From Longispora fulva (GTDB taxonomy: Bacteria > Actinomycetota > Actinomycetes > Mycobacteriales > Micromonosporaceae), in NCBI RefSeq assembly GCF_015751905.1, contig NZ_JADOUF010000001.1, positions 7,564,001-7,628,000 of the forward strand: a DNA stretch of 64,000 nt, in the 5' to 3' direction. Made by a program: the position numbers and the translations under genes. The notes below the pieces were generated by a model. The model saw only the letters and a program-made list of their open reading frames with translations, did no database searches and was not told the origin of the DNA. Of this stretch, positions 5,253-32,891 are shown piece after piece. Numbering within the stretch: the stretch's first letter is position 1; the number at the start of each line of letters is the position of its first letter.

Positions 5253-5306
5253 AGGCCCCCGCCGATGGACACCGGGTCGGGGACCTCTCGTAACCGTATG
5301 AAGCTT
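5253..5306 (-). terminator. CATACGGTTACG element plus stem-loop after the asparagine-synthase-like gene
   Basis: Read on the minus strand, the stop codon is followed by six bases, then CATACGGTTACG (5289-5300), then a 9-base stem (5278-5286 pairing with 5253-5261, one mismatch that can be a wobble pair). The same arrangement recurs after two other genes in this window, at 23168 and 32845. The stem is the probable terminator; the role of the 12-mer is unknown. Confidence 0.55.
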
Positions 5307-6944
5307 TCAGGGTTTCGGGGCCGCGAGCAGGTTGAGCAGGAACGCCACGGTGTGCGGGTCGCCCGGGCGGCGGCCGTCCAGCAGCTCCGCCACGTACGAG
5401 GGGCGCACCAGGTCCGGCAGGCCGTCGAGCAGGCCGCGGTTCGCGCGCCAGTGGTCGACGACCAGCCGGGACAGCAGGGGAGCGCCGAGCGGGGACCGGC
5501 GGCTGCCGGCGACCCGCTGGGCCACCTTGCCGACGGCCTTGCGGGCCGTGGCCCGCCAGTTGCCCCGGCCCTTGGCGAGCTGATTGGGGCTGCGGCCGCT
5601 GTCGAGGCGGATCACGGCCAGTTCGAGGTCGAGCTCGCGCATGATGGCGGCGAGCAGCCGGGAGTCGCGCTTGTCCGCCGGGTCGGCGGCGCGGGCCAGT
5701 TCGATGAAGCGGCGGTCGAACATCGGGTTCAGGAACACCCGGTCGACGGCGGCGACCGTGCCGTGCACCCCGCCCCAGCGCTGCATCCGCTGCCACAGGT
5801 AGAACTCGTCCAGCGAGCGCAGCCACTGGTCGCCGTAGCTCGTCAGCTGAGCCGTGACCAGGCCGATCGTGTACTTCTCCGCGGCCTCAGTGAATTCCGG
5901 CACCAGCGCGTCGCGGTCCACGGCCTCGTTGGTGAACAGCCGCCACCGGGCGAAACGCTCCGCCAGGTGCGCCGTGGTCGCGCCCGAGGGCTGCGCGCCG
6001 TAGTAGAAGCCGCGGGCCACCTCGCCGCCGAGGCCGGACAGCCGGCGGCCCTGCGGGAGCTGGCTCTCCGCCGCCGACAGCGGGGCGAGCGCGAGCGGGT
6101 TGGCCGAGCAGTCCAGGCGCAGGGCGGCGGCCGTGGCCAGCGCGTGGCCTTCGGCGGCGGACAGGCCGGTCAGCGAGCTGGTGTCGAAAACCTGGTGCAC
6201 CATCTTGTACCGGGCCGACAGCGCCCCGGCGATCGGCGCGTCCCGCCCACCCTGCGAGTCCAGGGTCAGGGTGTGCAGCCCGCGCCGCCGGTTGCTTGGG
6301 ATCGCGCCGAGCAGGATCCGCGAGTCGTGCCCACCGGTCAGCTGCAGCACCGGATCCTCGTGCTCGTCCAGGTACCGCACCAGCCACTCCCGCAGCAGCC
6401 CCGCGGCCTCCACGGCGGTCGCCTGCCGGCCCCGGGGCTCCTCGGTACGGTCGATGTCGTAGCGGACCAGCTCCACCGTGCCCCGGTGCAGCCGCGCGTA
6501 GTGCCCGGCGGGCACCTTCGACACCCCGGCGAACGGGGTCGCGTCGCCGAGCTGCCAGCCGAGGAGGCTCTGCACGCCCAGCGCGTCGTGGTCGAGGCCG
6601 GCGCCGGCCACCCCGGCCAGGGCGGGGGCGCTCGTGCTGATGCCGGCGACGCCGGAGCCCTGCCACCAATACACCTGGCGGAAGCCCAGGTAGTCGGTCA
6701 CCGCGACGACCGGCTCGGTCTCCGCCGCACGGTGCGCCGCGGCGAACGGGGGCGTGACCAGGCCGAACGCCTCCGGGCCCGTCACGAGCCAGCCGGCAAC
6801 GTCGGCCGGGGTGACGTCGCCGTGCGCGGCGCGGGGCTCGCGGTTCAGCAGGACGGTGAAGCCGCCCTGGGCGAGGCTGCCGTCGGGCAGCTCGACGCGG
6901 TCGGGGACGGACGGATCGGCATGACTGACCGCGAGAAGGTGCAC
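5307..6944 (-). CDS. Asparagine-synthase-like PP-loop protein
   Basis: 545 residues from a GTG with AGGATG upstream; a longer in-frame extension has no family likeness. The synthetase domain carries LQLTGGHDSR (about 200-209), the SGGxDS pyrophosphate loop of the asparagine synthase/beta-lactam synthetase family, which adenylates a carboxylate. The N-terminal ~170 residues resemble the glutaminase-fold half (VVAVTDYLGFRQVYW) but do not begin with the Cys2 nucleophile, so glutamine hydrolysis is unlikely. It may form an amide with another amine or ammonia. It converges on the polysaccharide operon; whether it modifies that product is unproven. Confidence 0.7.
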   Translation of the reverse strand: MHLLAVSHADPSVPDRVELPDGSLAQGGFTVLLNREPRAAHGDVTPADVAGWLVTGPEAFGLVTPPFAAAHRAAETEPVVAVTDYLGFRQVYWWQGSGVAGISTSAPALAGVAGAGLDHDALGVQSLLGWQLGDATPFAGVSKVPAGHYARLHRGTVELVRYDIDRTEEPRGRQATAVEAAGLLREWLVRYLDEHEDPVLQLTGGHDSRILLGAIPSNRRRGLHTLTLDSQGGRDAPIAGALSARYKMVHQVFDTSSLTGLSAAEGHALATAAALRLDCSANPLALAPLSAAESQLPQGRRLSGLGGEVARGFYYGAQPSGATTAHLAERFARWRLFTNEAVDRDALVPEFTEAAEKYTIGLVTAQLTSYGDQWLRSLDEFYLWQRMQRWGGVHGTVAAVDRVFLNPMFDRRFIELARAADPADKRDSRLLAAIMRELDLELAVIRLDSGRSPNQLAKGRGNWRATARKAVGKVAQRVAGSRRSPLGAPLLSRLVVDHWRANRGLLDGLPDLVRPSYVAELLDGRRPGDPHTVAFLLNLLAAPKP

Positions 6945-7015
6945 GCGCTCATCCTGCCCGGTGCGTTCCCCGCCTGTCAGTCGGGTAACGGTCAGGCTTT
7001 CCCGGGCCGTTCGGG

Positions 7016-7726
7016 TCACACCTTCGCGAGCTGCTCTGCGACTTTCGGGGCGAGCTGGGCGACGGTGGCCTTGGCGATCGCCTCGTTCTCGACGGAGTAG
7101 TGGAACGACGCGACCATGTCCATGCCGGCCGCCTTCCGACCCACGAAGACGGCGCATTCGCTCTTCTGGTGGCCGGACGGGATGAAGGAGACGGTCAGGC
7201 AGTAGCCGTAGCTCGCGGTGGTGCCGGGCAGCTCAGGGAGCACCACGTCCGACGAGTAGTCGACACTGCGGTCCACGATCGGTGTGGTGGCTTTCCAGCC
7301 GTGACACTTCTCCGGAATGGTCTTTCGGATCTCGTCGATGACCTGCACGGCGGTCGTGTCCTGGAACCCGGCGGTCGCGCTGAGAGCCCACGGGCCCTCC
7401 CCGGAGGTCCAGACCCGCACGTTTCGGCCGGTGATCGACGAATCAGTGCTCAGCCCCGGGTGACACTCGACGAGTAGTCCCTGGTAGACCCGCTCGGTTT
7501 CCGGCTCGCTCTTTCCTGGGAACGAGATCGCGGTGAGGGCGTCCTCCGGGAGCAGGGCCTTCTTCGTCATCGCGTACATCTCGGGGTCGGTCAGCTTCGT
7601 GGCGCTCGGGCTGGGAGCACTGGTGCTCGGCGCGGCGGCCGGCTTCTTCTCCGGGGCGGACCCGCACGCTGTCGCGGCGGTGGCGAGGAGCAGGGCGGTC
7701 AGGGTGAGGGCTACCCGACGGGGCAT
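7016..7726 (-). CDS. Secreted lipoprotein of unknown function
   Basis: 236 residues. The N-terminus has MPRR, a hydrophobic stretch (VALTLTALLLATAATA) and Cys21, a slightly atypical lipobox, followed by a Ser/Pro/Ala-rich linker to about residue 55. The mature part has four cysteines (in VECHPG, EKCHGW, YGYCLT, KSECAV) that could form two disulfides. The layout resembles extracellular sensor-type lipoproteins of actinomycetes, such as PknH-like sensor domains, but I cannot assign a family. An ATG 39 bases upstream-equivalent is possible but would bury the signal peptide. Confidence 0.65.
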   Translation of the reverse strand: MPRRVALTLTALLLATAATACGSAPEKKPAAAPSTSAPSPSATKLTDPEMYAMTKKALLPEDALTAISFPGKSEPETERVYQGLLVECHPGLSTDSSITGRNVRVWTSGEGPWALSATAGFQDTTAVQVIDEIRKTIPEKCHGWKATTPIVDRSVDYSSDVVLPELPGTTASYGYCLTVSFIPSGHQKSECAVFVGRKAAGMDMVASFHYSVENEAIAKATVAQLAPKVAEQLAKV

Positions 7727-7794
7727 GCGGAATTCCGTTTCACAGGGGAGCGTGTGCCGGAGCAACCTAACCCATGCGCTGCGAGGATGGGAAC

Positions 7795-8520
7795 GTGATT
7801 CCCACTGTGCTGCTGCACGCGTTCCCGCTGTCCTCGGCCATGTTCGCCGCCGTCGACCTGCCCGGCCTGATCGCCCCCGACCTGGCCGGCTTCGGCACCT
7901 CGGCCGTCCCCGACGCGCCCCCGGGCATGTCGGCCCTGGCCGCCGACGTCGTCGCCGAACTCGACCGGCGCGGGCTCGACCGGGTGGTCCTCGGTGGCGT
8001 GTCCATGGGAGGTTACGTCGCGATGGCGGTGGTTCGGGAGTACCCGGAAAGGGTCGGCGCTCTGATTCTCGCCGACACCAAGGCCGGCGCCGACGCTCCC
8101 GACGCCGCGGCGAACCGGCTGCGGATGGCCGAGTCGGTGCTGGCCGGGGGCGACGACACCGACGTGCTCGCTGCCCGGATGCTGGCCCCCGGGTCCCCGG
8201 TCCTCGCCGAGGTCCAGGCGGGGGTACGCGCCGCGCGCCCCGAAGCCGTCGCCTGGGCCCAGCGCGCGATGGCGGCCCGACCCGACTCCTTCGACACGTT
8301 GCGGCAGGTCACCGTGCCGACCCTGGTGATCGTGGGGGAGTTGGACTCCACGACCCCGCCGGCGGAGGCGCGCCTGATCGCCGAAGCGGTACCGGGCGCC
8401 CGGCTCGTCACCATCCCTGGCTCCGGGCACCTGCCGCCCTGGGAACGTCCCGCCGAGTTCACCGCCGCCGTCCGGGAGTTCATGGGGGGCTTGCCGGCGG
8501 GCGCTAGGCTCGGCGCATGA
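7795..8520 (+). CDS. Alpha/beta-hydrolase
   Basis: 241 residues. PTVLLHAFPLSSAMF opens the fold with the oxyanion-hole segment. GGVSMGGYVAM carries the nucleophile elbow G-x-S-x-G, VIVGELDSTTPP supplies the acidic residue, and PGSGHLPPWERP the catalytic histidine. The substrate is unknown; the 3-oxoadipate enol-lactonase/esterase branch is closest by feel. I chose GTG 7795 because GAGGAT sits six bases upstream, fitting either a weak Shine-Dalgarno or a leaderless -10 box; ATG 7774 is the alternative. The stop overlaps the next ATG (ATGA). Confidence 0.75.
   Translation: MIPTVLLHAFPLSSAMFAAVDLPGLIAPDLAGFGTSAVPDAPPGMSALAADVVAELDRRGLDRVVLGGVSMGGYVAMAVVREYPERVGALILADTKAGADAPDAAANRLRMAESVLAGGDDTDVLAARMLAPGSPVLAEVQAGVRAARPEAVAWAQRAMAARPDSFDTLRQVTVPTLVIVGELDSTTPPAEARLIAEAVPGARLVTIPGSGHLPPWERPAEFTAAVREFMGGLPAGARLGA
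8505..8510 (+). promoter_or_regulatory. Putative leaderless -10 box (TAGGCT-N6-ATG)
   Basis: TAGGCT lies six bases before ATG 8517, inside the end of the upstream hydrolase gene. The spacing places the transcription start at or next to the start codon. It would give the permease gene its own promoter. Confidence 0.45.
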
Positions 8521-9665
8521 CGGGCGAGGAACCGACGCACCCCACCGCACCGGGCGAGCCTGCCGAGGCTCTCGAAGAGCTGGCCGAGGCCGCCGAGCAC
8601 GCCGCCGAGGAGGTCTCCCGGTTCGGTACGCCGGGCAAGCCCTTCTCCCGCTCGCCCTTCCTCACCGGGCTGGTCGGCGGCGCCGGCCTGATCACGGCGT
8701 ACGTGGCCTACCAGGCCGTCGTCAACGTCTGGTCCATGCTCCTGTTGATCTTCGTGGCGGCGTTCCTGGCCGTCGGGCTCAACCCGGCCGTCGTCAAGCT
8801 CCGCGCCTGGGGCCTCAACCGGGGCCTGGCTGTCGCGATCGTCGGGCTGGCCATGGTGCTCGTCTTCTGCGGCGGCATCGCGGCCCTGATCCCGCCCCTC
8901 GTGCAGCAGGGCGACCAGGTGATCGGCAAGTTCCCCGACTACCTGCAACAGCTCACCCACAACCAGTGGCTGCACGACCTCGACAAGAAGTACGACATCA
9001 TCACCAAGGTCAAGGAAGCCGCGACCGCCACGAATATCAGCAACCTGTTCGGCGGGGTGCTCGGCGGGGTCAGCACCCTGTTCGGCACCATGTTCAACGC
9101 CCTGATGACCGTGGTGCTGACGTTCTACTTCCTCGCGGCGTTCGACCGGCTCAAGTCCGGCGCGTACAAGCTGGTGCCCGCCTCGCGCCGGGTGCGCGCC
9201 GAGCGGCTGGGCGACGAGATCCTCGCCAAGGTCGGCGGGTACATGATCGGGGCGATCGGGATCGCGGCCGTCGCCGGGGTCGCGTCCTACATCTTCATGC
9301 TGATCGTCGGCATCCCCTACGCGTACGCCCTCGCGCTCCTCGTCGCCATCCTCGACCTCATCCCGCAGGTCGGCGCCACCCTCGGCGCGGTCATCGTGTG
9401 CATCGTCGGCTTCGCGGCCGGCTCCGTGGGCGTCGGCATCGCCTGTGTGGTGTTCTTCGTGGTCTATCAGCAACTGGAGAACTGGATCATCTACCCCAAG
9501 GTGATGAACCGGGCCGTGGCGGTGACCGACCTCGCCGCGATCATCGGGGTACTGGTCGGCGTCGCCCTGTTGGGGGTTGTCGGCGCGCTGATCGCGGTAC
9601 CGGCGGTGGCGGCGATGCAGCTGATCATCCGTGAGGTGGCCATGCCCCGCCAGGACCAGTGCTGA
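8517..9665 (+). CDS. AI-2E family transporter (PerM-like membrane protein)
   Basis: 382 residues. After an acidic N-terminus of about 45 residues come paired hydrophobic segments (MLLLIFVAAFLAVGLNP, AIVGLAMVLVFCGGIAALIP), a central hydrophilic domain around 130-190, then a block of four or five membrane segments. The block includes NALMTVVLTFYFLAAFD, LLVAILDLIPQVGATLGA and the family-typical IYPKVMNRAVAVTDLAAIIGV ending in ALIAVPAVAAMQLIIRE. The family exports small molecules or acts in ion/proton antiport; the AI-2 assignment is historical. The ATG overlaps the preceding stop, but a TAGGCT box six bases upstream may give separate transcription. Confidence 0.85.
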   Translation: MTGEEPTHPTAPGEPAEALEELAEAAEHAAEEVSRFGTPGKPFSRSPFLTGLVGGAGLITAYVAYQAVVNVWSMLLLIFVAAFLAVGLNPAVVKLRAWGLNRGLAVAIVGLAMVLVFCGGIAALIPPLVQQGDQVIGKFPDYLQQLTHNQWLHDLDKKYDIITKVKEAATATNISNLFGGVLGGVSTLFGTMFNALMTVVLTFYFLAAFDRLKSGAYKLVPASRRVRAERLGDEILAKVGGYMIGAIGIAAVAGVASYIFMLIVGIPYAYALALLVAILDLIPQVGATLGAVIVCIVGFAAGSVGVGIACVVFFVVYQQLENWIIYPKVMNRAVAVTDLAAIIGVLVGVALLGVVGALIAVPAVAAMQLIIREVAMPRQDQC

Positions 9666-9849
9666 CCCCCTGAGCCCCCGCGCCCCGGGCTGACGCCTCC
9701 GGCTGCGGTCATGGTCGTGGCGATGGCATGCGGGCGGCGGTCGTGGAGATGGCCGGGATATTTTGACGGCGGAGGCGTCCGCCCGCCTTGGCCTGGGACG
9801 CAGCGTCTGCGGGCCGGTCAGAGGACGACCGTTGTCCGTGCCCGCACTG

Positions 9850-9929
9850 GCACCGTGTCCTCACCGGAACGGTGCTTGACCAGGACGGGAACAGCGTCGC
9901 CCCGGTCGTGTGCCGACCGGGGCGACGCT
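9850..9929 (-). terminator. Terminator hairpins behind the Scy-like gene
   Basis: A 16-base perfect inverted repeat (9893-9908 with 9914-9929, 5-base loop) starts 14 bases past the stop of the minus-strand Scy-like gene. A second 7-base repeat (9850-9856 with 9869-9875) lies beyond it. The rest of 9666-9943 has no convincing gene; it also holds a 10-base repeat, GACGCCTCCG at 9692 and its complement at 9770. Confidence 0.7.
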
Positions 9930-9943
9930 GACTGATCTGGTGG

Positions 9944-12097
9944 CTACTTCGCCGCGGCGGTCGACTTCGGGCTGGCCGGCTGGTCGGACTTCGCCGGCCC
10001 CACCGTCGCCTTGGGGCCCTCGGCCTTGTCCGCTCCGGCTGACGACGCCTTCGTGCCCGTGGCCTGCGCGGACTCGCGATCCGTGGACTTCGCGGACGCA
10101 TCGGTCGACTTCTGGGACGTGTCGGTTCCCTCCGGGGCGGCGCTCTCGGCCTTCGCGGCGGGGTCGGTAGCCGAGGCATCCGCCTTGGCCGTCGATCCGT
10201 TCCCGCTTCCGGACTTCGCGGCGGCGATCCGCACGGTCTCGGTGCCCGGGGTCCCGCCGGCCGCCTTCTGCGCGGCCCCGCCCGACGATCCGGCAGAGGT
10301 GCCAGCCTCAGACTTCGCTGCCGACTCGGCCGGAGCGGGAGCCCCGGCACTGGCCTTGGCCGCGGACGGTGCCGGAACCCCGGCCCCCGACGAGGCACCC
10401 GACCCGGCTGGACGAGCAGCCGCACCGACGTCAGTCCCCGCTGTGACAGGGGCCCCGGCAGCGGCGGGCACAGCCGACGCACCGAGCTCGGCGGCTGCGG
10501 AAGGCTCGGAAGCGGTGCCAGTCGCGACAGCGGCAGCAGCGGGAGACGCGGCAGGGGCCGGAGTGGAAGCGGCGGAAGCGGCAGCTGCCGGAGTGGCAGC
10601 GGCAGGAGCGGCAGCGGCGGCAGGCATGACCGGGGCGGCGATCGCGGCCGGCCGGCGGAGCGGCTCGTCGTCCTCCACGGTCGCGAACAACGCCGCCGAG
10701 TTCCCCGTCAGCTTCGCCAGGGTCTCCCGGAGCCGGGCCACGTCCTCGCGGATCTCCTGTCGGCGGTCCGCCAGATCCGCGATCTTGCGGTGGGCGTCGC
10801 CGACGACCGACTGCGCCTCGGCGTGTGCCGCGGACAGGGTGGCGGCGGCCGTCTGCTGGGCGGCACCCACCGCCTTGCTGGTGTGCTCGTCCGCGGTCGC
10901 CCGGGCGGCGGTTAAGGCCTGCTCCGCGTGGGCCTTGGCCTCGGCGATGATCCGCTGGGCCTCGGTGCGGGCCTGCTCGGCGGCGGTCTGGGCCGCCTTC
11001 TGCAGGGACTCGGCCTTCGAGTTCGCCTCATTGACCGTGCGCTCGGCCTTCGAATTCGCTTCACTGATCGTGCGCTCGGCCTTCGAGTGCGCCTCGCCGA
11101 CCGTGCGCTCGGTCTCGGACTTCGCCTCGGCGCGCAGGGCCGTGGTCTCGCGCTGGGCCACGGAGCGCAGGGTGTCGGCGTCGGACCGCGCCTTGGTGAG
11201 GGTGGCCTCGGCCTCGGCCCGGTGTTCGGCGGCCTTGCGCTGGGCTTCGGCCCGCAGCTCCTCGATCTCGCGTTGCGCCGTCGCGCGCCGCTCGGCGACC
11301 TCGCGCTGCAGCTGCTGGTGCAGGTCGGTGATCTGCTGCTTCGTGGTGGCCCGCAACTGCTGGGTCTCGGCGTGGGTCTGTTCGGCCTGGGTGCGGGCCG
11401 CGGTGAGCATCTGCTCGGACTGGACCTGGCTCTCCGTCTTGAGCGCCTCGACGGACCGCTGGGTCTCCGCGGTCAGCTGGTCGGCCTGGCTGCGGGCGGC
11501 GGACACGAGGCGCTCGGCCTCGGCGCGGGCCTCGGCGAGGGTGCGCTGGGCGTTGGCGGTGGCCTCGTTGACCTGTTTCTCCAGCGCGGCCCGGCGGGCG
11601 GCCTCCTCCTGCTCGGCGGTGACCCGGCGGGCGTTGAGGGCGGTCTGGAAGTCCTTGGTCGCCTGCTCGGCCTGCGCGCGGGCCTGCCCGACGGTCTGCT
11701 CGGCCTGGTTGCGGGCCTCGACGAGGGTGCGCTCCGCGGCGGCGCGGTGCTCGGTGATCGCCTGGTTGGCCCGGGTGGTGATCAGACGGGCCTCCTCCTC
11801 GGCGAGGGCGAGGATCTGCTCCACCCGGGGACCGAGGTGCTTGTACTGCGCCTTGTCGCCGACCACGGACCGGCGGCGCAACTCCGCGATCTCCGCCTGC
11901 AGCTGGGCGACCTGGCCCGCGTACGCCTGGGCCTGGGCGAATGCCTCTTCCCGCTCGGCGGCCAGCCCGGCCACGAAACCCTCGATCTGCGTCACATAGC
12001 GGTCGACCTGCTTGCGGTCGTACCCCCGCAGTGTGGTTTCGAAGGTTGTCTCGGTGGAGGTATTGCCCAATGTGAACACATCACCCTGCTGACCCAT
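9944..12097 (-). CDS. Scy-like DivIVA-domain coiled-coil protein
   Basis: 717 residues. TTFETTLRGYDRKQVDRYV (about 17-35) is a short DivIVA-type N-terminal motif. RVEQILALAEEEA follows, then a very long Ala/Glu/Arg coiled coil (about 60-500) ending DRRQEIREDVARLRETLAKL, then an Ala/Pro/Ser-rich low-complexity tail. Streptomyces Scy, often annotated as a cellulose-binding protein, and its neighbour FilP have this architecture and organise the polar growth site with DivIVA. The protein is shorter than Streptomyces Scy (over 1300 residues), so orthology is an inference from architecture and gene order. ATG 12097 has no Shine-Dalgarno but TAGTAT lies 7 bases upstream. Confidence 0.65.
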   Translation of the reverse strand: MGQQGDVFTLGNTSTETTFETTLRGYDRKQVDRYVTQIEGFVAGLAAEREEAFAQAQAYAGQVAQLQAEIAELRRRSVVGDKAQYKHLGPRVEQILALAEEEARLITTRANQAITEHRAAAERTLVEARNQAEQTVGQARAQAEQATKDFQTALNARRVTAEQEEAARRAALEKQVNEATANAQRTLAEARAEAERLVSAARSQADQLTAETQRSVEALKTESQVQSEQMLTAARTQAEQTHAETQQLRATTKQQITDLHQQLQREVAERRATAQREIEELRAEAQRKAAEHRAEAEATLTKARSDADTLRSVAQRETTALRAEAKSETERTVGEAHSKAERTISEANSKAERTVNEANSKAESLQKAAQTAAEQARTEAQRIIAEAKAHAEQALTAARATADEHTSKAVGAAQQTAAATLSAAHAEAQSVVGDAHRKIADLADRRQEIREDVARLRETLAKLTGNSAALFATVEDDEPLRRPAAIAAPVMPAAAAAPAAATPAAAASAASTPAPAASPAAAAVATGTASEPSAAAELGASAVPAAAGAPVTAGTDVGAAARPAGSGASSGAGVPAPSAAKASAGAPAPAESAAKSEAGTSAGSSGGAAQKAAGGTPGTETVRIAAAKSGSGNGSTAKADASATDPAAKAESAAPEGTDTSQKSTDASAKSTDRESAQATGTKASSAGADKAEGPKATVGPAKSDQPASPKSTAAAK

Positions 12098-12104
12098 GCA
12101 CCTA

Positions 12105-12110
12105 ATACTA
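12105..12110 (-). promoter_or_regulatory. Putative leaderless -10 box (TAGTAT-N7-ATG)
   Basis: On the minus strand TAGTAT stands seven bases before ATG 12097, with no Shine-Dalgarno between them. This would let the Scy-like gene be transcribed separately from the FilP-like gene upstream. Confidence 0.45.
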
Positions 12111-12163
12111 GCCAGAAGGTGTGTGAGCACGGTGTGAGGAGCACGTGCCACGAGAAAATACGG

Positions 12164-12196
12164 CGGTGCCCGGCGCAAGGAACGCGCCGGGCACCG
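12164..12196 (-). terminator. Terminator hairpin after the FilP-like gene
   Basis: A perfect 13-base inverted repeat (CGGTGCCCGGCGC with its complement at 12184-12196) around a 7-base loop, starting 16 bases after the FilP-like stop. It separates the transcripts of the two coiled-coil genes. Confidence 0.7.
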
Positions 12197-12211
12197 TGGG
12201 TGAGGCTGGGG

Positions 12212-13462
12212 TTACTTGTCGTCCTTCTTGTCTTCGGCCTTCTCCTCGGCCTTGGCCGGGGTGCCGCCGAGCACCGCGCCCAGCGCGCCGCCGCCGATGT
12301 TGGCGAGGCCACCGAGCATTTCGCGGAGCTGGCCGAGTTGGGCGGTGACGGAGTCCCGCTGGCGGGTGAGCTCCTCCACCTCCCGGCGGGCGGCCGTGGT
12401 GGTCAGCTCGGCCTCGCTGCGGGCGTCGGCCGTGGCCCGCGCCGCCTCGCTCCGGGCCTCGCTCGTGGTCTTCTCCGCGAGCGCCTTGGCCTTCTCGATC
12501 GTGTCGTTCGCCGTGCGGTCGGCCTCGATCCGCCGGGACTCGGCGCGCTGCTCGGTCTCCTTGGCCCGCTCGTCGGCGGTGCGGGCACGCTGCTCCGCCT
12601 CGGTGACGAGCTTCTGGGTCGCGGCGACCGCGGAGTTGTGCCGCTCGGACTCCTCGCGCTCGGAGGTCTCGCGACGTTCCGCGAGCTCGAGGGCCAGGGA
12701 CTGCAGGTCCTTGTCCCGCTTCTCCTTGGCCTCCGCGTAGAGCTTGGTGGCCTCGGCGCGCTTCTCCTCCGCCTCGCGGGCGGCCTTGGCGCGCAGCTGG
12801 GTGATCTCCCGCTCGGCCGTGGCCCGCAGGGTGGCGACCTCGCGCTCGACCGTCGCGCGCAGCTCGGCCACCTCGTGGGCGGCGGAGGTACGCAGCTGCT
12901 TGGTCTCGCGGTCGGCGTCCGCCCGCAGCGTGTCGGCTTCCCGACGCGCCTGCACCCGCAGCTCGGCTGCCTCGCGCTCGGCGGCCGTCTTCAGGCCGCT
13001 CGCCTCGCGCTCGGTGGTCGCCTTCATGGCGGCCGCCTCCGCGCGGGACTTGTCCGTGATCTCGCGTGCCTCCAGCCGGGCGGTGGACAAGATGCCCTCC
13101 GCCTCCCGCTTCGCCTCGGCGCGGTGCTCGTTGGCCTGCTCCTCGGCGAGGCGGAGGATCTGCTCCACCCGGGTGCCGAGCCCCGAGAGCGTGGGCCGTG
13201 AGTTCTCCTCGATGGCCTTGGTCTGCTCGGTGACCTTCTGTTCCAGCGAGCCCATCCGCTGTTCGGACTGGCGGAGGCGACGCTGGGCGTCGGTCATCCG
13301 CTGCTCGGCCTCGGAACGGGCACCTTCGGACTGGGCCAGCGCAGCATTGAGCCGCTGGACGAAGTCGTCGACCTGCGCGCGGTCATAACCACGCAGAACG
13401 ACCGTGAAATCGGGTTGACTGTTCGCTTGCTCGAAGAATGTCATGGAGGGCTGCTGGGGCAT
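12212..13462 (-). CDS. filP: FilP-like coiled-coil cytoskeletal protein
   Basis: 416 residues. The N-terminus has PDFTVVLRGYDRAQVDDFV, the same motif as its neighbour, then LSGLGTRVEQILRLAEEQA and a continuous coiled coil to about residue 395. It ends with ELTRQRDSVTAQLGQLREM and a Lys/Asp/Glu tail. Streptomyces FilP is an intermediate-filament-like, DivIVA-interacting protein of about 310 residues with the same motif order, and its gene is next to scy, as here. ATG 13462 fits best because GAGTAT lies six bases upstream; TTG 13498 and ATG 13444 are alternatives. Paralogy to the Scy-like protein is plain from the shared N-terminal and RVEQIL segments. Confidence 0.65.
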   Translation of the reverse strand: MPQQPSMTFFEQANSQPDFTVVLRGYDRAQVDDFVQRLNAALAQSEGARSEAEQRMTDAQRRLRQSEQRMGSLEQKVTEQTKAIEENSRPTLSGLGTRVEQILRLAEEQANEHRAEAKREAEGILSTARLEAREITDKSRAEAAAMKATTEREASGLKTAAEREAAELRVQARREADTLRADADRETKQLRTSAAHEVAELRATVEREVATLRATAEREITQLRAKAAREAEEKRAEATKLYAEAKEKRDKDLQSLALELAERRETSEREESERHNSAVAATQKLVTEAEQRARTADERAKETEQRAESRRIEADRTANDTIEKAKALAEKTTSEARSEAARATADARSEAELTTTAARREVEELTRQRDSVTAQLGQLREMLGGLANIGGGALGAVLGGTPAKAEEKAEDKKDDK

Positions 13463-13581
13463 TGGCACATACTCGCAGACCGGCAGGGGTCTCGCCAAGG
13501 GTGGAAGCCCTTTACGTAGACCGATAAATACGTATACGAACGGTTTCTAACCGTAGGCTCGAGAACACGCTCTGTCAAAAA
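13463..13581 (-). promoter_or_regulatory. Upstream region of the FilP-like gene with palindromes
   Basis: An AT-richer stretch in a GC-rich window. It contains ACGGTTTCTAACCGT (13540-13554), a perfect inverted repeat with a 3-base centre, and CGTATACG (13531-13538). The first may act as terminator or operator for ccr, which ends at 13582. The second sits near the probable promoter of the FilP-like gene. Confidence 0.4.
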
Positions 13582-23167: not shown

Positions 23168-23254
23168 AAACGTCAGACGGTTACGGCGGGGCCCGACCCG
23201 GCACGCGCCGGTCAGTCCGGAGCCCCGCCCGGGCACGGCCCGCTCCGCGGGCCG
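23168..23254 (+). terminator. CAGACGGTTACG element and hairpins after the ABC operon
   Basis: Six bases after the TAG comes CAGACGGTTACG (23174-23185), one base different from the element at 32851 and from the one on the minus strand at 5289. It runs straight into GGCGGGGC (23185-23192), which pairs with GCCCCGCC (23222-23229). A further 8-base stem (23236-23243 with 23247-23254) lies near the end of the opposing Asp23 gene and may terminate it. Confidence 0.55.
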
Positions 23255-23970: not shown

Positions 23971-23999
23971 AGCGATCGTTAAGGTGGCCGGCCTACTAT
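23971..23999 (+). promoter_or_regulatory. icmA promoter with candidate operator
   Basis: TACTAT (23994-23999) is a good -10. AGCGATCGTTAAGG (23971-23984) covers the expected -35 area and shares CGATCGTTAAGG with the region upstream of ccr. A protein bound there would interfere with RNA polymerase. No cobalamin-riboswitch-like sequence is evident in the short leader before GTG 24056. Confidence 0.45.
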
Positions 24000-24055
24000 C
24001 GGGGCGGGGCGCCACCGCGCCTGGATGGCAACAGACCCAAACCCAGGGGGATGTC

Positions 24056-25729: not shown

Positions 25730-25742
25730 CAGACTTTCTCTC

Positions 25743-26663
25743 ATGAAGCAGCTCGATCCGCGCAACGCACCATCGATGTTCACCCGTGGCGCCGTCGACC
25801 TCGGCGCGATCCGGGACCGGGCGGCGGCCCAGGCCAAGGCCGAAGCCGCCGCCGCTGCCGGTGCTCCGCCGGCCCCGGCCCCCGCTCCGGCGGGCGGCGC
25901 GATCGTCGACGTGACCGAGGCGTCGTTCCAGGAGGTGATGGAGCGGTCACTGACCGTTCCGGTGCTCCTGCTGTTCAGCACCGAGTGGGCGACCGAGGCC
26001 GCCGACCTGCGTGCCGAGCTGGAACGGCTGGCGACCGAGTCGGAGGGCGCGTTCGTGCTCGGCCGGGTCGACGCAGAGAAGGAGCCCCGGGTCTCCCAGG
26101 CCTTCCGGGTGCAGAGCGTCCCCACGGTGTACGCCGTGATCGGCGGTCAGCCCACCCCCGGTTTCGAGGGCGTGATCGACAACGCGCAGCTCAAGCAGTT
26201 CGTGGACGCCGTGATCAAGGCCGGGGGCGGGGAGCCGGCCGAGGCCCCGGAGGACCCGCGCCTGCTGGCGGCGGAGGACGCGCTGATGGACGGCGAGCTG
26301 GACGCCGCGGCGACGGCGTACGGCGAGATCCTGAAGGAGAACCCGGGGGACGCGGTGGCCCAGGCCGGGCTCGCCCAGGTGGAACTCCTCCGTCGGATCG
26401 CCGGCGTCGACCCGAACGCCGCCCTGGCAGCGGCCGAGGCGAACCCCGACGACGTGGCCGCCCAGACCCTGGCCGCCGACATCGAGGTGCTCTCCGGAAA
26501 CGCCGAGCAGGGCTACAACCGGCTCGTCGGGCTCGTCCGGCGCACCGCCGGGGCCGAGCGCGACCAGGCCCGGCTGCACCTGATCTCCCTCCTCGCCCTC
26601 GCGGCCCCCGAGGACCCGGTCGTCGCGAAGGCGCGCCGGGCCCTGGCCAGCGCGTTGTTCTAG
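25743..26663 (+). CDS. YbbN/CnoX-like thioredoxin-TPR protein
   Basis: 306 residues. An Ala/Pro-rich N-terminus (30-52) precedes a thioredoxin fold (about 54-160). There the usual WCGPC is replaced by STEWATEAADL, so it has no redox-active cysteines; the cis-proline is present in QSVPTVYAV. The C-terminal third has TPR-like helices (DAAATAYGEILKENPGDAVAQAGLAQVELLR). This matches the actinobacterial YbbN co-chaperone family, which protects clients under stress. There is no Shine-Dalgarno; CAGACT seven bases before the ATG may be a leaderless -10. It begins 13 bases after the mutase gene. Confidence 0.82.
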   Translation: MKQLDPRNAPSMFTRGAVDLGAIRDRAAAQAKAEAAAAAGAPPAPAPAPAGGAIVDVTEASFQEVMERSLTVPVLLLFSTEWATEAADLRAELERLATESEGAFVLGRVDAEKEPRVSQAFRVQSVPTVYAVIGGQPTPGFEGVIDNAQLKQFVDAVIKAGGGEPAEAPEDPRLLAAEDALMDGELDAAATAYGEILKENPGDAVAQAGLAQVELLRRIAGVDPNAALAAAEANPDDVAAQTLAADIEVLSGNAEQGYNRLVGLVRRTAGAERDQARLHLISLLALAAPEDPVVAKARRALASALF

Positions 26664-26674
26664 ACGGGACCCCG

Positions 26675-27742
26675 ATGCCCCCCGGCCCTTCGGACGACCC
26701 GAGCACCGCGCGCAGGATCGCGGTGCTCGACGCGCCGTCGAACCTCGGCCTCCGCCCGCCGACCATCGGGTCGGTCCCGGGCTGCGGCAAGGCTCCCGGC
26801 GCGCTGCGGGACGCCCGGATCGTGGACCGGCTGAAGGCGTACGACGCCGGCTGCGTCACCCCGCCCCGGTACGACCCGGGGGAGTGGCGGCCGGGGGACG
26901 GGGTGGCCCAGGCGGGCTCGGTGGCGGTGTACTCGAAGATGCTCGCCGCCCGGATCGGCGACCTCCTGGACCGGGAGTACTTCCCGGTCGTCCTCGGCGG
27001 GGACTGCTCGATCACCCTCGGGGTGGCGCTGGCGCTGCGCCGCCGGTCGCTGTCCCTGGCCGCCGAACAGGCGGCGCACGCGGCCAGGGAGGCCGCGCGG
27101 GTGGCGGAGGCGGAGACCGACCCGGAGCGGTACGCGGCGGAGGTCGCGGCGGCCGTGCGGGCCACCGTCCTCCCGCCCCAGCTGCCCGAGGGCCCCCGCT
27201 ACGGCCTGGTGTACCTCGACGGGCACTCCGACTTCCGGCACGAGGGCAACGCGCCCTTCGTCGGGGCTGCGGCGGGGGAGAACCTGGCGCTGGCCACCGG
27301 GCGGGGCCAGTTGGCGTTGACGGACATCGACGACCTGAAGCCGTACCTGCACGACCAGGACGTGGTGGTGCTCGGCATCCGACAGCACGACGAGCACCGG
27401 ATGGATCTCCGCGCGGCCGGGATCGAGCACCGCACGGTGCCGGCGCTTCGCGCCGAAGGAGCGTCCCGGAGCGCGGCGTGGGCCCGGGAGGTGCTCGCCG
27501 ACTGCGCCGGCTACTGGGTGCACGTGGACGTCGACATCCTCGACCCCTCGGTGATGCCCGCCGTGGACGCCCCGGACCCGGGCGGCATCGCCTACGGGGA
27601 GCTGGAGCTGCTGATCGCGGGCCTGACGGACGCGCCGGAGTGCCTGGGCCTGCACATCTCCGTCTTCGACCCGGACTACGACCCGACCGGCACCTACGCC
27701 GAGGAGCTGGTCCAGCTGCTGGTGAACGGGCTCGGGGTCTGA
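26675..27742 (+). CDS. Ureohydrolase (arginase/agmatinase) family protein with altered metal motif
   Basis: 355 residues. The fold is clear: VVLGGDCSITLG (106-117), YLDGHSDF (180-187), HVDVDILDP (283-291) and a terminal helix pattern. Canonical arginases have GGDHS and DAHxD; here the first manganese-ligand His is Cys111 and the second motif is DGHSD. The other ligands (Asp182, His184, Asp186, Asp285, Asp287) are kept. An Ala/Glu-rich insertion (about 127-172) separates the first two motifs. It may be a formimidoylglutamase- or guanidinohydrolase-like enzyme with changed metal use; the substrate cannot be given. It starts 11 bases after the previous gene. Confidence 0.72.
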   Translation: MPPGPSDDPSTARRIAVLDAPSNLGLRPPTIGSVPGCGKAPGALRDARIVDRLKAYDAGCVTPPRYDPGEWRPGDGVAQAGSVAVYSKMLAARIGDLLDREYFPVVLGGDCSITLGVALALRRRSLSLAAEQAAHAAREAARVAEAETDPERYAAEVAAAVRATVLPPQLPEGPRYGLVYLDGHSDFRHEGNAPFVGAAAGENLALATGRGQLALTDIDDLKPYLHDQDVVVLGIRQHDEHRMDLRAAGIEHRTVPALRAEGASRSAAWAREVLADCAGYWVHVDVDILDPSVMPAVDAPDPGGIAYGELELLIAGLTDAPECLGLHISVFDPDYDPTGTYAEELVQLLVNGLGV

Positions 27743-27972
27743 CTTGGCTACCCAGGGTGACCACACATGGAGTGCGATCGAATCACGCTCCGTGCTCGTT
27801 GCACTGGGGTGGGACAGCGCGATTGTCCGGTACGCCATGATGTGTCATCGGCCATATGGCCAGCACGCGGCGGCCGGGTGGAGCAAACCCGACTGGCCGT
27901 TCAGTTGGGACCGGGCAGCGCATAGGCTGGGACCCAGCACACAGCGCGGTGGGCGAAGGGGAGTGGACCCAT
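27743..27972 (+). promoter_or_regulatory. gdh upstream region with palindrome GGCCATATGGCC
   Basis: This 230-base gap holds a perfect 12-base palindrome, GGCCATATGGCC (27850-27861), and an imperfect repeat GGACA-N7-TGTCC (27812-27828). Both are candidate operators for the large dehydrogenase gene. A confident -10/-35 pair is not apparent. CCATATGG recurs across the start codon region at 27970. Confidence 0.35.
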
Positions 27973-30900
27973 ATGGAACGGCGTCCGGCGACCGTGACAG
28001 ACATTACAGAGAGTCTGTCTGGGATCGGTGTCGATGACGAGGCCGAGCTCGCAGAGCCGGTACCGAACCGCGATCGTTTGATCGCCGATGCGTGCGCGTT
28101 GGCGGGTGAGAAAGATCAAGAGCTGGCGGAGCTGTACTGGCGCCTCGTCCCCGACGAGGAGCTGGTGGACGAGAGCCCCCAGGACATGCTGCGCGCCACG
28201 CTCGAGCACAAGACCCTGGCGGCCCAGCGGCTGCCGGGCGAGCTGAAGCTCGACGTCGACAGCACCTCCAGCGACGGGCACACCACGGTCACCGTCGTGA
28301 CCGACGACATGCCGTTCCTGGTCGACAGCGTGACCGCCGCCCTCGCCGGCGAGGGGCTGGGCATCCACCTGCTGGTCCACCCGCAGGTCGTGGTGAGCCG
28401 CGAACCGCTCGGCCGGCTGACGGCGCTGTTCCCGTCCGTGGACCCCGACGACGCCGGTGACGGCCAGCTCGTCGAGAGCTGGATGCGGATCGAGGTCGAC
28501 CGGGTGCGCGACGAGGCCCAGGAGACCTCGCTGCGCAACGCCATCCAGCGGGTCCTCACGGACGTGCGCGAGGTCAACGAGGACTGGCCGAAGCTGCGGC
28601 ACCGGGCGCTGAGCCTGGCCGACGAGCTGTCCGGCGCGAAGCTGCCCGTCCCCGACAAGGACATCAACGACACCGTGGAGCTGCTGCGCTGGCTGGCGCA
28701 GGACAACTTCACCCTCCTGGGCTACCGGGAGTACGACCTGGTCGACGGGGAGTACCTGCAGGCCAAGCTCGGTACCGGTCTCGGCATCCTGCGCCAGGAC
28801 TCCACCCAGCCGCGCGCGCTGTCGTCGATGACGCCGGAGGCGTACGCCAAGGCCCTCGACCAGCGGCTGCTGATCATCACGAAGGCCAACTCCCGGGCGA
28901 CAGTGCACCGCACCGCGTACCTGGACTACATCGGCATCAAGACGTTCGACGCGAACGGCGTCGTCAACGGCGAGCGCCGCTTCCTGGGCCTGTTCGGCTC
29001 GGGCGCGTACCTGCACTCGGTGCGGGAGCTGCCGGTGATCCGGCGCAAGGTCGACGAGGTGCTGGACCGCTCGGGCCTGTCCCCGCGCAGCCACTCCGGC
29101 AAGGACCTGATGGAGGTCCTGGAGACCTACCCGCGCGACGAGTTGTTCCAGATCTCCACCGACGAGCTGTTCCACACCGCGATGGGCGTCCTGCGCCTGG
29201 CCGGTCGTCGGCAGCTCAAGCTGTTCGTCCGCAAGGACGCCTACGGCCGGTTCATCTCGTGCATGGTCTACCTGCCGCGCGACCGGTTCACCACCGGCAA
29301 CCGGCTCAAGATGCAGGAGATCCTCCTGCACGAGCTCAACGGCATCGGGGTGGACTACACGACGCGGGTGTCGGAGTCGACGCTGGCCCGGGTGCACTTC
29401 ATCGTGCGCACCGACCCGAACGCCCCGCCCGGGGAGATCGACACCGACGCGATCAGCGAGAAGCTGTCCGACGCCACCCGGCTGTGGGACGACGACTTCC
29501 GGCTCGTCCTCGACCGGCACCTCGGCGAGGACCAGGAGAAGCGGCTGTTCGCGCGGTACATCGACGCGTACCCGCAGACCTACAAGGACGAGCACACCCC
29601 GACCGAGGCCGCGAAGGACATCGCGAAGCTGGAGCTGGTGGACGAGCCGGGCGAGCTCGCCCTGCACCTGTTCCGCCGGCGCAAGAACGACGCGGACCTG
29701 CGGTTCAAGGTGTTCCGGTACGGCGAGCCGATGGTGCTGTCCGCCGTGCTGCCCGTGCTGCACTCCCTCGGCTTCAAGGTCACCGACGAGCGGCCGTACG
29801 AGATCCGCCGCTCCGACGGCACGGTCTACCTGTACGACTTCGGCCTGGTCGCGCCCGAGGACTCCTCGCCGGCCCCGGAGATCCGGGCGACGGTGGAGAA
29901 CGCCTTCTCGGCCACCTGGCACGGCGAGGCCGAGGTGGACGGGCTCAACCAGCTCGTGCTGCGCGCCGGGCTGAGCTGGCGGCAGGTCGTGGTGCTGCGT
30001 GCGTACGCGAAGTACCTGCGGCAGGCCGGGACGGTCTTCTCCCAGGAGTACATGGAGGAGACGTTCATCGCCTACCCGGGCGTCGCGACGCTGCTGGTGG
30101 CGTTGTTCGAGACCCGGTTCGACCCGCGCCTCGGGCTGACCGAGGAGGCCCGCGCCGCGCACGCCGACGAGCTGGTCGTCGCGCTCAAGGCGGAGCTGGA
30201 CCAGGTCGGCAGCCTCGACCAGGACCGGATCCTGCGCAGTTTCCTCACCCTGATCCAGGCGACGCTGCGCACCTCGTTCTTCCAGCGTTCCCCGGGCGGC
30301 CGGCCGAAGTCCTACATGGCCTTCAAGCTCAACCCCGAGGCGATCCCGGACCTGCCCCAGCCCCGGCCGAAGTTCGAGATCTGGGTGTACTCGCCGCGCT
30401 TCGAGGGCGTGCACCTGCGGTTCGGCGCCGTGGCCCGGGGTGGTCTGCGCTGGTCGGACCGCCGCGAGGACTTCCGCACCGAGATCCTGGGCCTGGTCAA
30501 GGCGCAGATGGTGAAGAACGCCGTCATCGTGCCGGTCGGCTCGAAGGGCGGCTTCGTCCTGAAGCAGGCCCCGCCGGCCACGGACCGCGACGCGTTCTTC
30601 GCCGAGGGCGTGGACTGCTACAAGTTGTTCATCTCCGCGCTGCTGGACGTCACGGACAACCTGGTCGCCGGCAAGATTGTGCCGCCGGCCGAGGTGGTGC
30701 GGCACGACGGGGACGACCCGTACCTGGTGGTGGCGGCCGACAAGGGCACAGCGACGTTCTCGGACACCGCGAACGGCATCTCCGAGGCGTACGGCTTCTG
30801 GCTCGGCGACGCGTTCGCCTCCGGCGGCTCGGCCGGCTACGACCACAAGAAGATGGGCATCACGGCCAAGGGCGCGTGGGAGTCGGTCAAGCGGCACTTC

Positions 30901-32844
30901 AGAGAAATGGGCGTTGACACCCAGACCGAGGAGTTCACGGTCGTCGGCGTCGGCGACATGTCCGGCGACGTGTTCGGCAACGGCATGCTGCTGTCCGAGC
31001 ACATCCGGCTCGTGGCCGCATTCGACCACCGGCACATCTTCCTCGACCCGAACCCGGTCGCGGCGGCGTCCTTCGCCGAGCGGCAGCGGATGTTCGACAT
31101 CCCGCGCAGCAGCTGGGACGACTACGACAAGTCGCTGATCTCGGCCGGCGGCGGGGTCTACCCCCGCACGCTCAAGTCGATCCCGTTGTCGCCTGAGGTC
31201 CGGGCGTCCCTGGGCATCGACGACAGCGTCACGGAGCTGTCCCCGCCGGAGCTGATGAAGGCCATCCTCAAGGCCCCGGTCGACCTGTTCTGGAACGGCG
31301 GCATCGGCACCTACGTCAAGTCCTCGCTGGAGAGCCACGCGGACGTCGGCGACAAGGCCAACGACGCGATCCGGGTCAACGGCAGGGACCTGCGGGTCAA
31401 GGTCGTCGGCGAGGGCGGCAACCTGGGCTGCACCCAGCGCGGCCGGATCGAGTACAGCCGCGCGGGCGGGCACATCAACACCGACGCCATCGACAACTCG
31501 GCCGGCGTCGACTGCTCCGACCACGAGGTCAACATCAAGATCCTGCTCAACGGGGTCATGCAGCGCGCCGAGCTGGACCTGGCCGAGCGCAACGTCCTGC
31601 TCGCCGAGATGACCGACGAGGTCGCCGAGCTGGTGCTCGCCGACAACTACGGCCAGGCCACGGCGCTCGGCAACGCCCGGGCCCAGTCGCACTCGCTGCT
31701 GCCGGTGCACCGCCGGCTGATCAGCGAGCTGGAGCGCACCGGCCGACTCAACCGGGACCTGGAGGCGCTGCCCAGCGAGGAGGAGCTCGACGCCCGCGAC
31801 GCCGCCGGCCTCGGGCTGACCTCGCCGGAGTTCGCCGTCATGATGGCCTACGTCAAGATCGTGCTGGAGGACGAGATCCTGGCGTCCGCCGTGCCCGACG
31901 AGGACTGGACCACCGACGTGCTGTCGGGGTACTTCCCAACCCCGCTGCGCGAGCGGTACGCCGCGGACATGCACAACCACGCCCTCCGTCGCGAGATCGT
32001 CACCACGGTCCTCGTCAACGACGTCGTGAACCGGGGCGGCATCTCCTTCGTGTTCCGGGCGGCGACCGAGACCGGGGCCGACCCGGCCGACGTCCTGCGC
32101 GCGTACGTCGTGGTCCGCGAGGTGTTCGGGCTGCGCGAACTGTGGCGCTCGGTGGAGGCCCTCGACAACGAGGTCCCGACCGACACCCAGACCCTCGTGC
32201 TCCTCGAGGCCCGCCGGCTGATGGACCGGGCGGTGCGCTGGCTGGTCCAGAACCGCCGGGTCCCGCTCGACGTGCCCGCGGAGATCGCCCGGCTCCAACC
32301 CGGGGTCGCCAAGCTCCTGCCGGAACTCACCACCCTGTTCCGGGGCGCCGAGCGGGAGGCGCTGAAGGCGCACGCCACGATGTTGCACGGCAAGGGCATC
32401 CCCGAGGACCTGGCGGACTGGGCCACCCGGCTCATCTACGGCTTCGGGGTCATCGACATCGTCGAGGTGGCCGCGAACAAGAACGCGGCGCTCGACGAGG
32501 TCGCGGGCGTGTACTACGTGCTGTCCGAGCGGTTCCGGGTCGATGCGCTGCTGACCCAGATCTCGCAGCTGCCCCGGGCGGACACCTGGCAGACCCTGGC
32601 CCGGATGGCCCTGCGCTACGACCTGTACGCGGCTCTGGCGGCGCTCACCGCCGAGGTCCTCTCGGCGTCGACGTCCGACCTCAGCCCCGAGGAGCGGGTC
32701 GACGTGTGGGAGCAGGTCAACGCGGCGTCCATCGCGCGGGCCCGCAACGCGATCGGGGAGTTCGACGACTCCCGGGCCGACCTGGCGGCGCTGTCCGTCC
32801 TGCTCCGCCAGATCCGCACGCTGGTCCGGACCTCGGCGGCATAA
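27973..32844 (+). CDS. gdh: NAD-specific glutamate dehydrogenase, large (~180 kDa) class
   Basis: 1623 residues, the size of the GDH180 class first described in Streptomyces. It oxidatively deaminates glutamate to 2-oxoglutarate with NAD. N-terminal ACT-like regulatory modules (about 85-440) are followed by the catalytic part with GGLRWSDRREDFRTEILGL, MVKNAVIVPVGSKGGFVLK (catalytic lysines), VVGVGDMSGDVFGNGMLLS and VVGEGGNLGCTQRGRIEY, then a long helical tail. ATG 27973 is preceded by GGGGAG about 10 bases upstream; an in-frame ATG at 27856 has no support. The class is allosterically controlled by amino acids. Confidence 0.92.
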   Translation: MERRPATVTDITESLSGIGVDDEAELAEPVPNRDRLIADACALAGEKDQELAELYWRLVPDEELVDESPQDMLRATLEHKTLAAQRLPGELKLDVDSTSSDGHTTVTVVTDDMPFLVDSVTAALAGEGLGIHLLVHPQVVVSREPLGRLTALFPSVDPDDAGDGQLVESWMRIEVDRVRDEAQETSLRNAIQRVLTDVREVNEDWPKLRHRALSLADELSGAKLPVPDKDINDTVELLRWLAQDNFTLLGYREYDLVDGEYLQAKLGTGLGILRQDSTQPRALSSMTPEAYAKALDQRLLIITKANSRATVHRTAYLDYIGIKTFDANGVVNGERRFLGLFGSGAYLHSVRELPVIRRKVDEVLDRSGLSPRSHSGKDLMEVLETYPRDELFQISTDELFHTAMGVLRLAGRRQLKLFVRKDAYGRFISCMVYLPRDRFTTGNRLKMQEILLHELNGIGVDYTTRVSESTLARVHFIVRTDPNAPPGEIDTDAISEKLSDATRLWDDDFRLVLDRHLGEDQEKRLFARYIDAYPQTYKDEHTPTEAAKDIAKLELVDEPGELALHLFRRRKNDADLRFKVFRYGEPMVLSAVLPVLHSLGFKVTDERPYEIRRSDGTVYLYDFGLVAPEDSSPAPEIRATVENAFSATWHGEAEVDGLNQLVLRAGLSWRQVVVLRAYAKYLRQAGTVFSQEYMEETFIAYPGVATLLVALFETRFDPRLGLTEEARAAHADELVVALKAELDQVGSLDQDRILRSFLTLIQATLRTSFFQRSPGGRPKSYMAFKLNPEAIPDLPQPRPKFEIWVYSPRFEGVHLRFGAVARGGLRWSDRREDFRTEILGLVKAQMVKNAVIVPVGSKGGFVLKQAPPATDRDAFFAEGVDCYKLFISALLDVTDNLVAGKIVPPAEVVRHDGDDPYLVVAADKGTATFSDTANGISEAYGFWLGDAFASGGSAGYDHKKMGITAKGAWESVKRHFREMGVDTQTEEFTVVGVGDMSGDVFGNGMLLSEHIRLVAAFDHRHIFLDPNPVAAASFAERQRMFDIPRSSWDDYDKSLISAGGGVYPRTLKSIPLSPEVRASLGIDDSVTELSPPELMKAILKAPVDLFWNGGIGTYVKSSLESHADVGDKANDAIRVNGRDLRVKVVGEGGNLGCTQRGRIEYSRAGGHINTDAIDNSAGVDCSDHEVNIKILLNGVMQRAELDLAERNVLLAEMTDEVAELVLADNYGQATALGNARAQSHSLLPVHRRLISELERTGRLNRDLEALPSEEELDARDAAGLGLTSPEFAVMMAYVKIVLEDEILASAVPDEDWTTDVLSGYFPTPLRERYAADMHNHALRREIVTTVLVNDVVNRGGISFVFRAATETGADPADVLRAYVVVREVFGLRELWRSVEALDNEVPTDTQTLVLLEARRLMDRAVRWLVQNRRVPLDVPAEIARLQPGVAKLLPELTTLFRGAEREALKAHATMLHGKGIPEDLADWATRLIYGFGVIDIVEVAANKNAALDEVAGVYYVLSERFRVDALLTQISQLPRADTWQTLARMALRYDLYAALAALTAEVLSASTSDLSPEERVDVWEQVNAASIARARNAIGEFDDSRADLAALSVLLRQIRTLVRTSAA

Positions 32845-32891
32845 AACCACCATACGGTTACGGAGGGGACCGATCCTGCTGGGTCGGTCCC
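32845..32891 (+). terminator. CATACGGTTACG element and terminator hairpin after gdh
   Basis: Six bases after the TAA is CATACGGTTACG (32851-32862), identical to the element behind the asparagine-synthase-like gene. Three bases later the stem GGGACCGA (32866-32873) pairs perfectly with TCGGTCCC (32884-32891) across a 10-base loop. Confidence 0.6.

Follow-up and report, generated by a model that had tools for sequence, protein, structure and literature searches.

Short repeats at the 3' ends of genes are best known from proteobacteria, there typically as hairpins. ERIC/RU-1 and YPAL are small, non-autonomous palindromic intergenic repeats that lie near gene ends, and REP elements are associated with a Y1 (TnpA-REP) transposase. 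REP elements tagged GTAG/CGTC are described, in the accessible portion of one survey, as high-copy short sequences lying mostly 3' of coding regions, in convergent or unidirectional gaps and near or overlapping stop codons (PMC3733652). Stem-loops, according to the accessible part of another study, prefer convergent gaps in the bacteria examined (PMC1590033). For Streptomyces, the accessible part of a study of transcript ends describes ends without a U-tract as common, about 25% of all ends carrying a U-rich motif, and ascribes those without one to other mechanisms or to processing (PMC8780764).

The repeat analysed here, F1, is carried by the actinomycete Longispora fulva. It resembles REP elements, as that survey's accessible portion describes them, in its high copy number, its position at gene 3' ends and its preference for convergent and unidirectional gaps (PMC3733652), yet it is not palindromic, is not generally prone to form hairpins and consists of modular slots instead of one stem. 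By eye, the F1 consensus carries neither a GTAG nor a CGTC tag at an end. A search for the RAYT transposase (PF01797, Y1_Tnp) gave no match in L. fulva and none in its congener; the same search was positive in 5 of 14 named genomes. With no palindrome, combinatorial slots and no RAYT, F1 is not a member of the REP family; in position and host restriction it appears to behave like the REP/ERIC class of 3'-end repeats. It differs from ERIC/RU-1 and YPAL, having no terminal inverted repeats by eye and no general hairpin, and a second repeat of L. fulva, F2, is of the ERIC/RU-1 and YPAL type. Like intrinsic terminators, F1 stands behind stop codons and is frequent in convergent gaps, but it has no general hairpin and no T-tract after its core.

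Integron attC sites combine a GTTRRRY core with a matching inverse core. They were considered as a match and rejected: most copies have GTTACGG as their core, a sequence that does not fit RRRY, and no inverse core was seen by eye in the copies inspected. The motif letters of F1 were not found in the literature searched, and the best-ranked matches name no such repeat for this group in their titles or the openings of their abstracts. No conserved F1-like motif is mentioned in the accessible part of the Streptomyces study (PMC8780764).

A slotted repeat of about 60 bases

The window is a 64-kb stretch (7,564,001-7,628,000) of the single-contig 8.68-Mb L. fulva genome. A preliminary description of it drew attention to a 12-base element behind three genes, with a constant distance from the stop codon and a constant link to a hairpin, and proposed a functional 3' element. 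The three sites exist and match exactly (Table 1). With stop codons that end, by gene calls, at 5307 (minus strand), 23167 and 32844, the gap from stop to element is exactly six bases at all three, beginning with AA. The weaker site reported at 46251 also exists: the last base of the PdtaS-like gene is 46242, and behind it stands AAACCTTTCATATGTTACG, by eye a degenerate F1 copy. Pfam backs the identities of the ABC ATPase, the glutamate dehydrogenase and the PdtaS-like gene (GAF_PdtaS/HisKA_2), and the asparagine-synthase-like reading frame (5307-6944, minus strand, 545 aa) is without a Pfam match from its called start. Within the window alone the 12-mer is unremarkable when up to two mismatches are allowed (11 occurrences against 6.5 expected), and Rfam covariance models, run against the window and the F1 copies inside it, gave no gathering-level match.

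The whole genome gives a different scale, with 34 exact copies of the 12-mer against 1 for the reversed pattern. Thirty-one of the 34 are CAGACGGTTACG, and with 15 on the forward and 19 on the reverse strand there is no strand skew. For the shorter core ACGGTTACG the count is 110, compared with 11 for its control, and CAGACGGTTA is the top over-represented 10-mer (18 against 0.14 expected) in a 1.66-Mb sample partly chosen for holding copies. The longer element became apparent from an alignment of 40 copies: the 12-mer is one piece of the interspersed repeat F1, about 60 bases long, of which L. fulva holds a few hundred copies. A sequence-only profile finds at least 151 matches in the genome, and nhmmer at E<0.2 finds 19, 16 and 29 copies, or 64, in 1.36 Mb contiguous sequence (1.06-1.40, 4.10-4.50 and 5.20-5.82 Mb). 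The sampled blocks are not random, the long ones having been placed at known matches and most of the short ones picked for holding matches. The density in the three blocks, about 47 copies per Mb, implies roughly 300-400 copies genome-wide, depending on how much F1-poor sequence is counted. Among the 150 matches listed, the first 1.0 Mb holds a single one and the interval from 2.0 to 3.5 Mb another; 1.0-1.8 Mb is rich in copies and lies near the point opposite dnaA (6.31 Mb) if the contig is circular. F1 is therefore sparse in much, though not all, of the ter-proximal half.

Table 1. F1 and F2 copies in the window (window coordinates)
Feature	Position	Strand	Exact 12-mer	Remarks
F1 copy behind asparagine-synthase-like gene (stop end 5307)	5249..5307	-	CATACGGTTACG, 5289-5300	slots AGAGGTCCC / CGACCCGG / TGTCCATCGG; nhmmer E 8.7e-9
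F1 copy behind second ABC ATPase gene (stop end 23167)	23168..23224	+	CAGACGGTTACG, 23174-23185	slots GCGGGGCC / CGACCCGG / CACGCGCCGG; nhmmer E 4e-11
F1 copy behind NAD-glutamate dehydrogenase gene (stop end 32844)	32844..32903	+	CATACGGTTACG, 32851-32862	nhmmer E 9.2e-7
Degenerate F1 copy behind PdtaS-like gene, AAACCTTTCATATGTTACG...	46243..46290	+		by eye; absent from profile matches at E<0.05
Fourth F1 copy, TCGGTTACGCCGCGTTCC	61885..61960 (outer limits approximate; core 61931-61939)	-		E 0.0047
F2 palindromic repeat, related to F1	61978..62075	-		98-nt hairpin, z -6.5

The fourth copy in Table 1, which the preliminary description had missed, has an AGATCAA leader before its core and lies in the gap between a malic-enzyme-like gene (plus strand) and a flavin-reductase-like gene (minus strand). 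The F2 copy lies directly upstream of it and directly behind the stop codon at 62077.

An F1 copy starts with an A/C-rich leader, usually a short way past a stop codon, and finishes in a G+C-rich tail. Next to the leader stands TCAGACGGTTACG or TTTTCCGGTTACG; three variable slots follow, each drawing on a small set of words, with CCCGG and CGG at their ends. The leader is A-rich and often reads AAAACC, AGATCAA..CCATCAT or AACCTTTTC; CAGA, CATA or TTTTC often stands in front of the core, CGGTTACG. Slot B is 8-9 nt long, with words such as GCGACACC, GTGGGGCC, GAGGTCCC and GAGGTTCC and a class one base longer, CCGCGTTCC; it starts with GCGACAC in 27 of 71 ungapped copies. Slot C holds TGCCCCGG, CGACCCGG, TCACCCGG and other words. 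Slot D holds CGCG, CACG, GTTC, TCTC, CATC and others, and is usually followed by C[AG]N and CGG. Mutual information over the 71 ungapped copies reaches a z of 29 within slots and is about 6 or less between slots, with part of the slot D signal coming from one-base length differences. An RNA stem was rejected as the source of this signal, strong mutual information being found only between nearby columns of one slot; the same copies gave no convincing long-range complementary covariation.

Pairs of copies have 53-62 nt in common at 87-91% identity, and one composite pair shares 175 nt at 87%. Such long shared stretches point to common descent. The variation shows strong linkage inside a slot but far weaker linkage from one slot to another 10-20 nt away, which is unlike simple copy-and-decay. 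A hidden peptide was also considered and rejected: some tails are open frames, but stops occur at every phase relative to the core, and these stops, together with slot classes one base apart, make a conserved reading frame unlikely.

Position at gene ends and folding

Placement was scored against 1,473 genes called in 1.664 Mb with our own, unvalidated codon-usage caller. The 89 copies at E<0.05 comprise 59 in convergent gaps, 14 tandem sense, 10 tandem antisense, 2 in divergent gaps and 4 inside an opposite-strand call; those four calls may be over-extended. Convergent gaps make up 18% of gap length yet hold 59 of the 85 intergenic copies (p 1e-24), and divergent gaps make up 33% yet hold 2 (p 1e-12), both shares being computed on gaps of at least 60 nt. 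All but two of these copies (83/85) lie in a gap with at least one gene 3' end. Counting convergent gaps of every length, F1 occupies 62 of 295 in the whole sample and 39 of 208 when the three longest blocks are taken alone. The F1 profile contains the leader and so may favour A-rich sites near stops, but the count of GGTTACG is independent of the profile: of 1,472 stretches of 45 nt next to stop codons, 52 contain this heptamer, where its frequency in the remaining sample predicts 1.3 (2.3 if spread evenly).

Distance from the stop is another matter. A stop codon precedes 73 copies on their own strand. In these the core lies at -1 to 25 nt in 55 and at 8-12 nt in 26; the six-base spacing is found in 8. 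The exact six-base gap of the window sites is therefore not general. In tandem gaps, orientation relative to the ending gene shows no bias (14 sense, 10 antisense; p 0.54), which argues against a purely sense-strand terminator.

The link to a hairpin is likewise not general. The three copies in the window have lower folding z values than most (-1.6, -2.6 and -2.1; the copy behind the PdtaS-like gene, -0.1), and individual copies do form stems, as at 23186-23245 (z -2.6). Over the 65 nt from the core end, however, the 89 copies have a median z of -0.36, and 15% fold clearly better than shuffles (z below -2), against a median of -1.76 and 47% in F1-free convergent gaps, represented by the first 90 eligible gaps read from 5 nt past the stop. 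A scan of whole gaps of 60-250 nt gives the same contrast. The median best 44-nt energy is -23.9 kcal/mol (z -1.1) in 46 F1 gaps and -32.7 kcal/mol (z -2.8) in 60 F1-free gaps sampled from 94 with a similar median length (p 0.001 and 0.002, respectively), and 6 of the 46 F1 gaps reach a z below -3, compared with 29 of the 60 F1-free ones (p 0.00014). The G+C content of F1 gaps is slightly lower (0.737 against 0.768). F1 thus tends to occupy gaps that lack the usual hairpin; the element may replace the hairpin, or may only sit in places too cramped by abutting genes to hold one.

The preliminary interpretation is therefore partly supported. There is strong support for a non-random 3' element with a tie to gene ends, and none genome-wide for the fixed spacing or the fixed link to a hairpin. 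The element may be a terminator component.

Distribution among genomes and origin

The exact 12-mer occurs in 1-2 copies in 21 of 60 genomes of relatives and in none of the other 39, and the F1 tail is absent from the eight of these 12-mer contexts that were inspected. The F1 profile, searched against 149 other genomes of the family under stricter filters, with 34 candidates per listed genome scored, gave one borderline match (E 9.8e-4). A scan of about 85,000 species with a 25-base degenerate F1 pattern, which left out records close to the genome of the window, gave one exact match, in an Anaerolineae bin. In the congener, the one further genome of the genus among those searched, 570 kb of one contig, largely syntenic with L. 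fulva from 5.337 Mb on, holds no F1 profile match below E 0.7, and GGTTACG is near chance there (2 of 510 stretches of 80 nt against 1.4 expected). The search of phages gave one 20-nt match (E 0.6), and that of plasmids gave weak matches, with 2 records at E<0.01 and, in a second search, 5 at E<1. The plasmid match examined, from Streptomyces, lies 12 nt past a stop codon and was rejected as the palindrome GGTACGG...CCGTACC and not F1; this palindrome occurs in 48 of 246 genomes of the class and is absent from L. fulva. Among the genomes searched, F1 looks confined to L. fulva.

The palindromic F2 is present in both species, close behind stop codons. Its outer arms, CCCGCTGAG and CTCAGCGGG, are followed by CCAnnnCGCCTTAGATCAA, and its inner arms are of several exchangeable kinds, complementary by eye in the copies inspected. 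The outer-frame pattern has 26 matches in L. fulva and 66 in the congener, where the variable gap makes a few sites count double, and is absent from 198 further genomes of the family, so far suggesting that F2 is restricted to the genus among the genomes searched. Copies of F1 outnumber those of F2 in the blocks sampled, and F1 often sits on the AGATCAA tail of F2, as at 61,885-62,075 (minus strand) in the window. In several congener copies the AGATCAA tail is followed by TGTACC, and TTTGTACC is found in 2 of 510 stretches there. The tail being present in both species, the leader is common to both; the CGGTTACG body, as far as the searches reach, belongs to the L. fulva lineage alone.

Comparison with the congener bears on whether F1 was inserted or arose by change in place. 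For seven conserved gene pairs with F1, the gap in L. fulva minus that in the congener is 14, -125, 89, 129, 184, 314 and 63 nt, that is, longer by more than 40 nt in five, similar in one and shorter in one. Three of these seven gaps are nearly empty in the congener (4, 18 and -4 nt against 188, 147 and 59 in L. fulva), and at a fourth site the aligned flanks are 13 nt apart in the congener and 75 nt in L. fulva. Among 15 F1-free convergent pairs, the L. fulva gap is also the longer one, by more than 40 nt in 8, and shorter in 3, with a median of 87 nt against 47 in the congener. The gap comparison gives no clear-cut empty site, and F1 has no terminal inverted repeat by eye. One copy has a leader that runs into the final codons of a gene, codons with homologues in the congener, which looks like change in place and not insertion.

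Several further repeats and arrangements were seen. Neighbouring F1 copies less than 5 kb apart face inward in 10 of 18 pairs. Mobile gene cassettes flanked by such copies were considered. At both facing pairs in the compared region the enclosed DNA is missing at that position in the congener; at one of them the missing block extends several kb past the pair, and the numbers are too small to go further. At 5,416,345-5,418,050 two inward-facing copies surround about 1.6 kb with an apparently divergent gene pair, absent from this position in the congener, where the aligned flanks are about 41 bp apart. Between about 4.101 and 4.130 Mb, ten copies of CAAGTGACTTGA, an imperfect palindrome, are spread over about 28 kb, eight of them continuing to GAA; they resemble operators repeated within a prophage or an integrated element. 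A third palindromic repeat, GATCAACTACACG..TTGC ... GCAA..CG(T/C)GTAGTTGATC, lies near gene ends at 4.275, 4.391, 5.239, 5.507 and 7.091 Mb. The congener has a palindromic repeat of its own, TGGGACCCCTCA...TGAGGGGTCCCA, with eight strand matches at about 4-5 apparently intergenic loci.

Explanations for F1

The reality of F1, its copy number, its restriction among the genomes searched, its placement at 3' ends and in convergent gaps, its modularity and its want of a general hairpin are observations. They are probably best explained by a lineage-specific, 3'-end-associated short interspersed repeat that plausibly makes a hairpin-independent transcript end. A repeat of about 60 nt would have expanded in one actinomycete lineage to its present 300-400 or so places, mostly gene 3' ends in convergent gaps. 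It would have arisen by copying and been kept where no promoter was harmed. It would probably also act as a module for 3' ends or termination, so that the gaps concerned need no hairpin. F1 may mark or terminate transcripts without the usual hairpin.

A neutral or selfish repeat without function, whose 3' bias reflects purging from promoters and coding sequence, would account for a placement like that given for REP repeats in the accessible portion of the survey cited above (PMC3733652), and it fits the scarcity of F1 in relatives and in much of the ter-proximal sequence. Purging from promoters alone gives no reason, however, for so strong a preference for convergent over tandem gaps; the cores close behind stop codons and the deficit of hairpins in F1 gaps also speak against this reading, which we consider rather doubtful.

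A sequence-specific terminator or roadblock that needs no hairpin, with a lineage-specific protein binding CGGTTACG and making the CCCGG and CGG contacts, is unlikely on our assessment. Such a protein would stop RNA polymerase, or set the RNA 3' end, between convergent genes, and on origin this account differs from the repeat reading in that the copies would have arisen or been maintained by selection and not by mobility. The 3' placement and convergent bias speak for it, as do the weak hairpins in just the F1 gaps, the words that vary as local units at fixed spacing in the manner of a multi-contact recognition site, and the leader that overlaps conserved codons at one site. The lack of orientation bias in tandem gaps speaks against it, as do the long shared stretches, which argue for copying, and the 233 of 295 convergent gaps without a detected copy. 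The more specific proposal that F1 is a new transcript-end signal, made of a core and three word slots read by a lineage-specific factor at about one-fifth of convergent gene ends (62/295; 39/208), is one to which we give still less credence; the congener would then use other sequences at its convergent ends.

An ordinary intrinsic terminator, in which hairpin arms happen to share sequence, is very improbable. The window copies and some others form strong stems, and the complementarity of box B-C to the sequence downstream of it is slightly higher within a copy than between copies, an effect that is weak though above permutation (z ~3, 87 copies). But the tails fold far less well than F1-free gaps, TTTT is absent from the 65 nt after the core in all 89 copies, and there is no convincing long-range covariation; folding and covariation largely refute this reading. 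A chromosome-maintenance or DNA-uptake type of signal, suggested by the high-copy short core and its scarcity on much of the side opposite dnaA, is scarcely credible given the absence of strand skew, the F1-rich stretch at 1.0-1.8 Mb and a slotted 60-nt body that such signals do not resemble.

L. fulva is a G+C-rich actinomycete with a high-copy family at gene 3' ends that is generally not a hairpin and stands in gaps that tend to be without strong ones. If F1 does end transcripts, a mechanism that needs no hairpin could be tested at several hundred natural sites in this genome.
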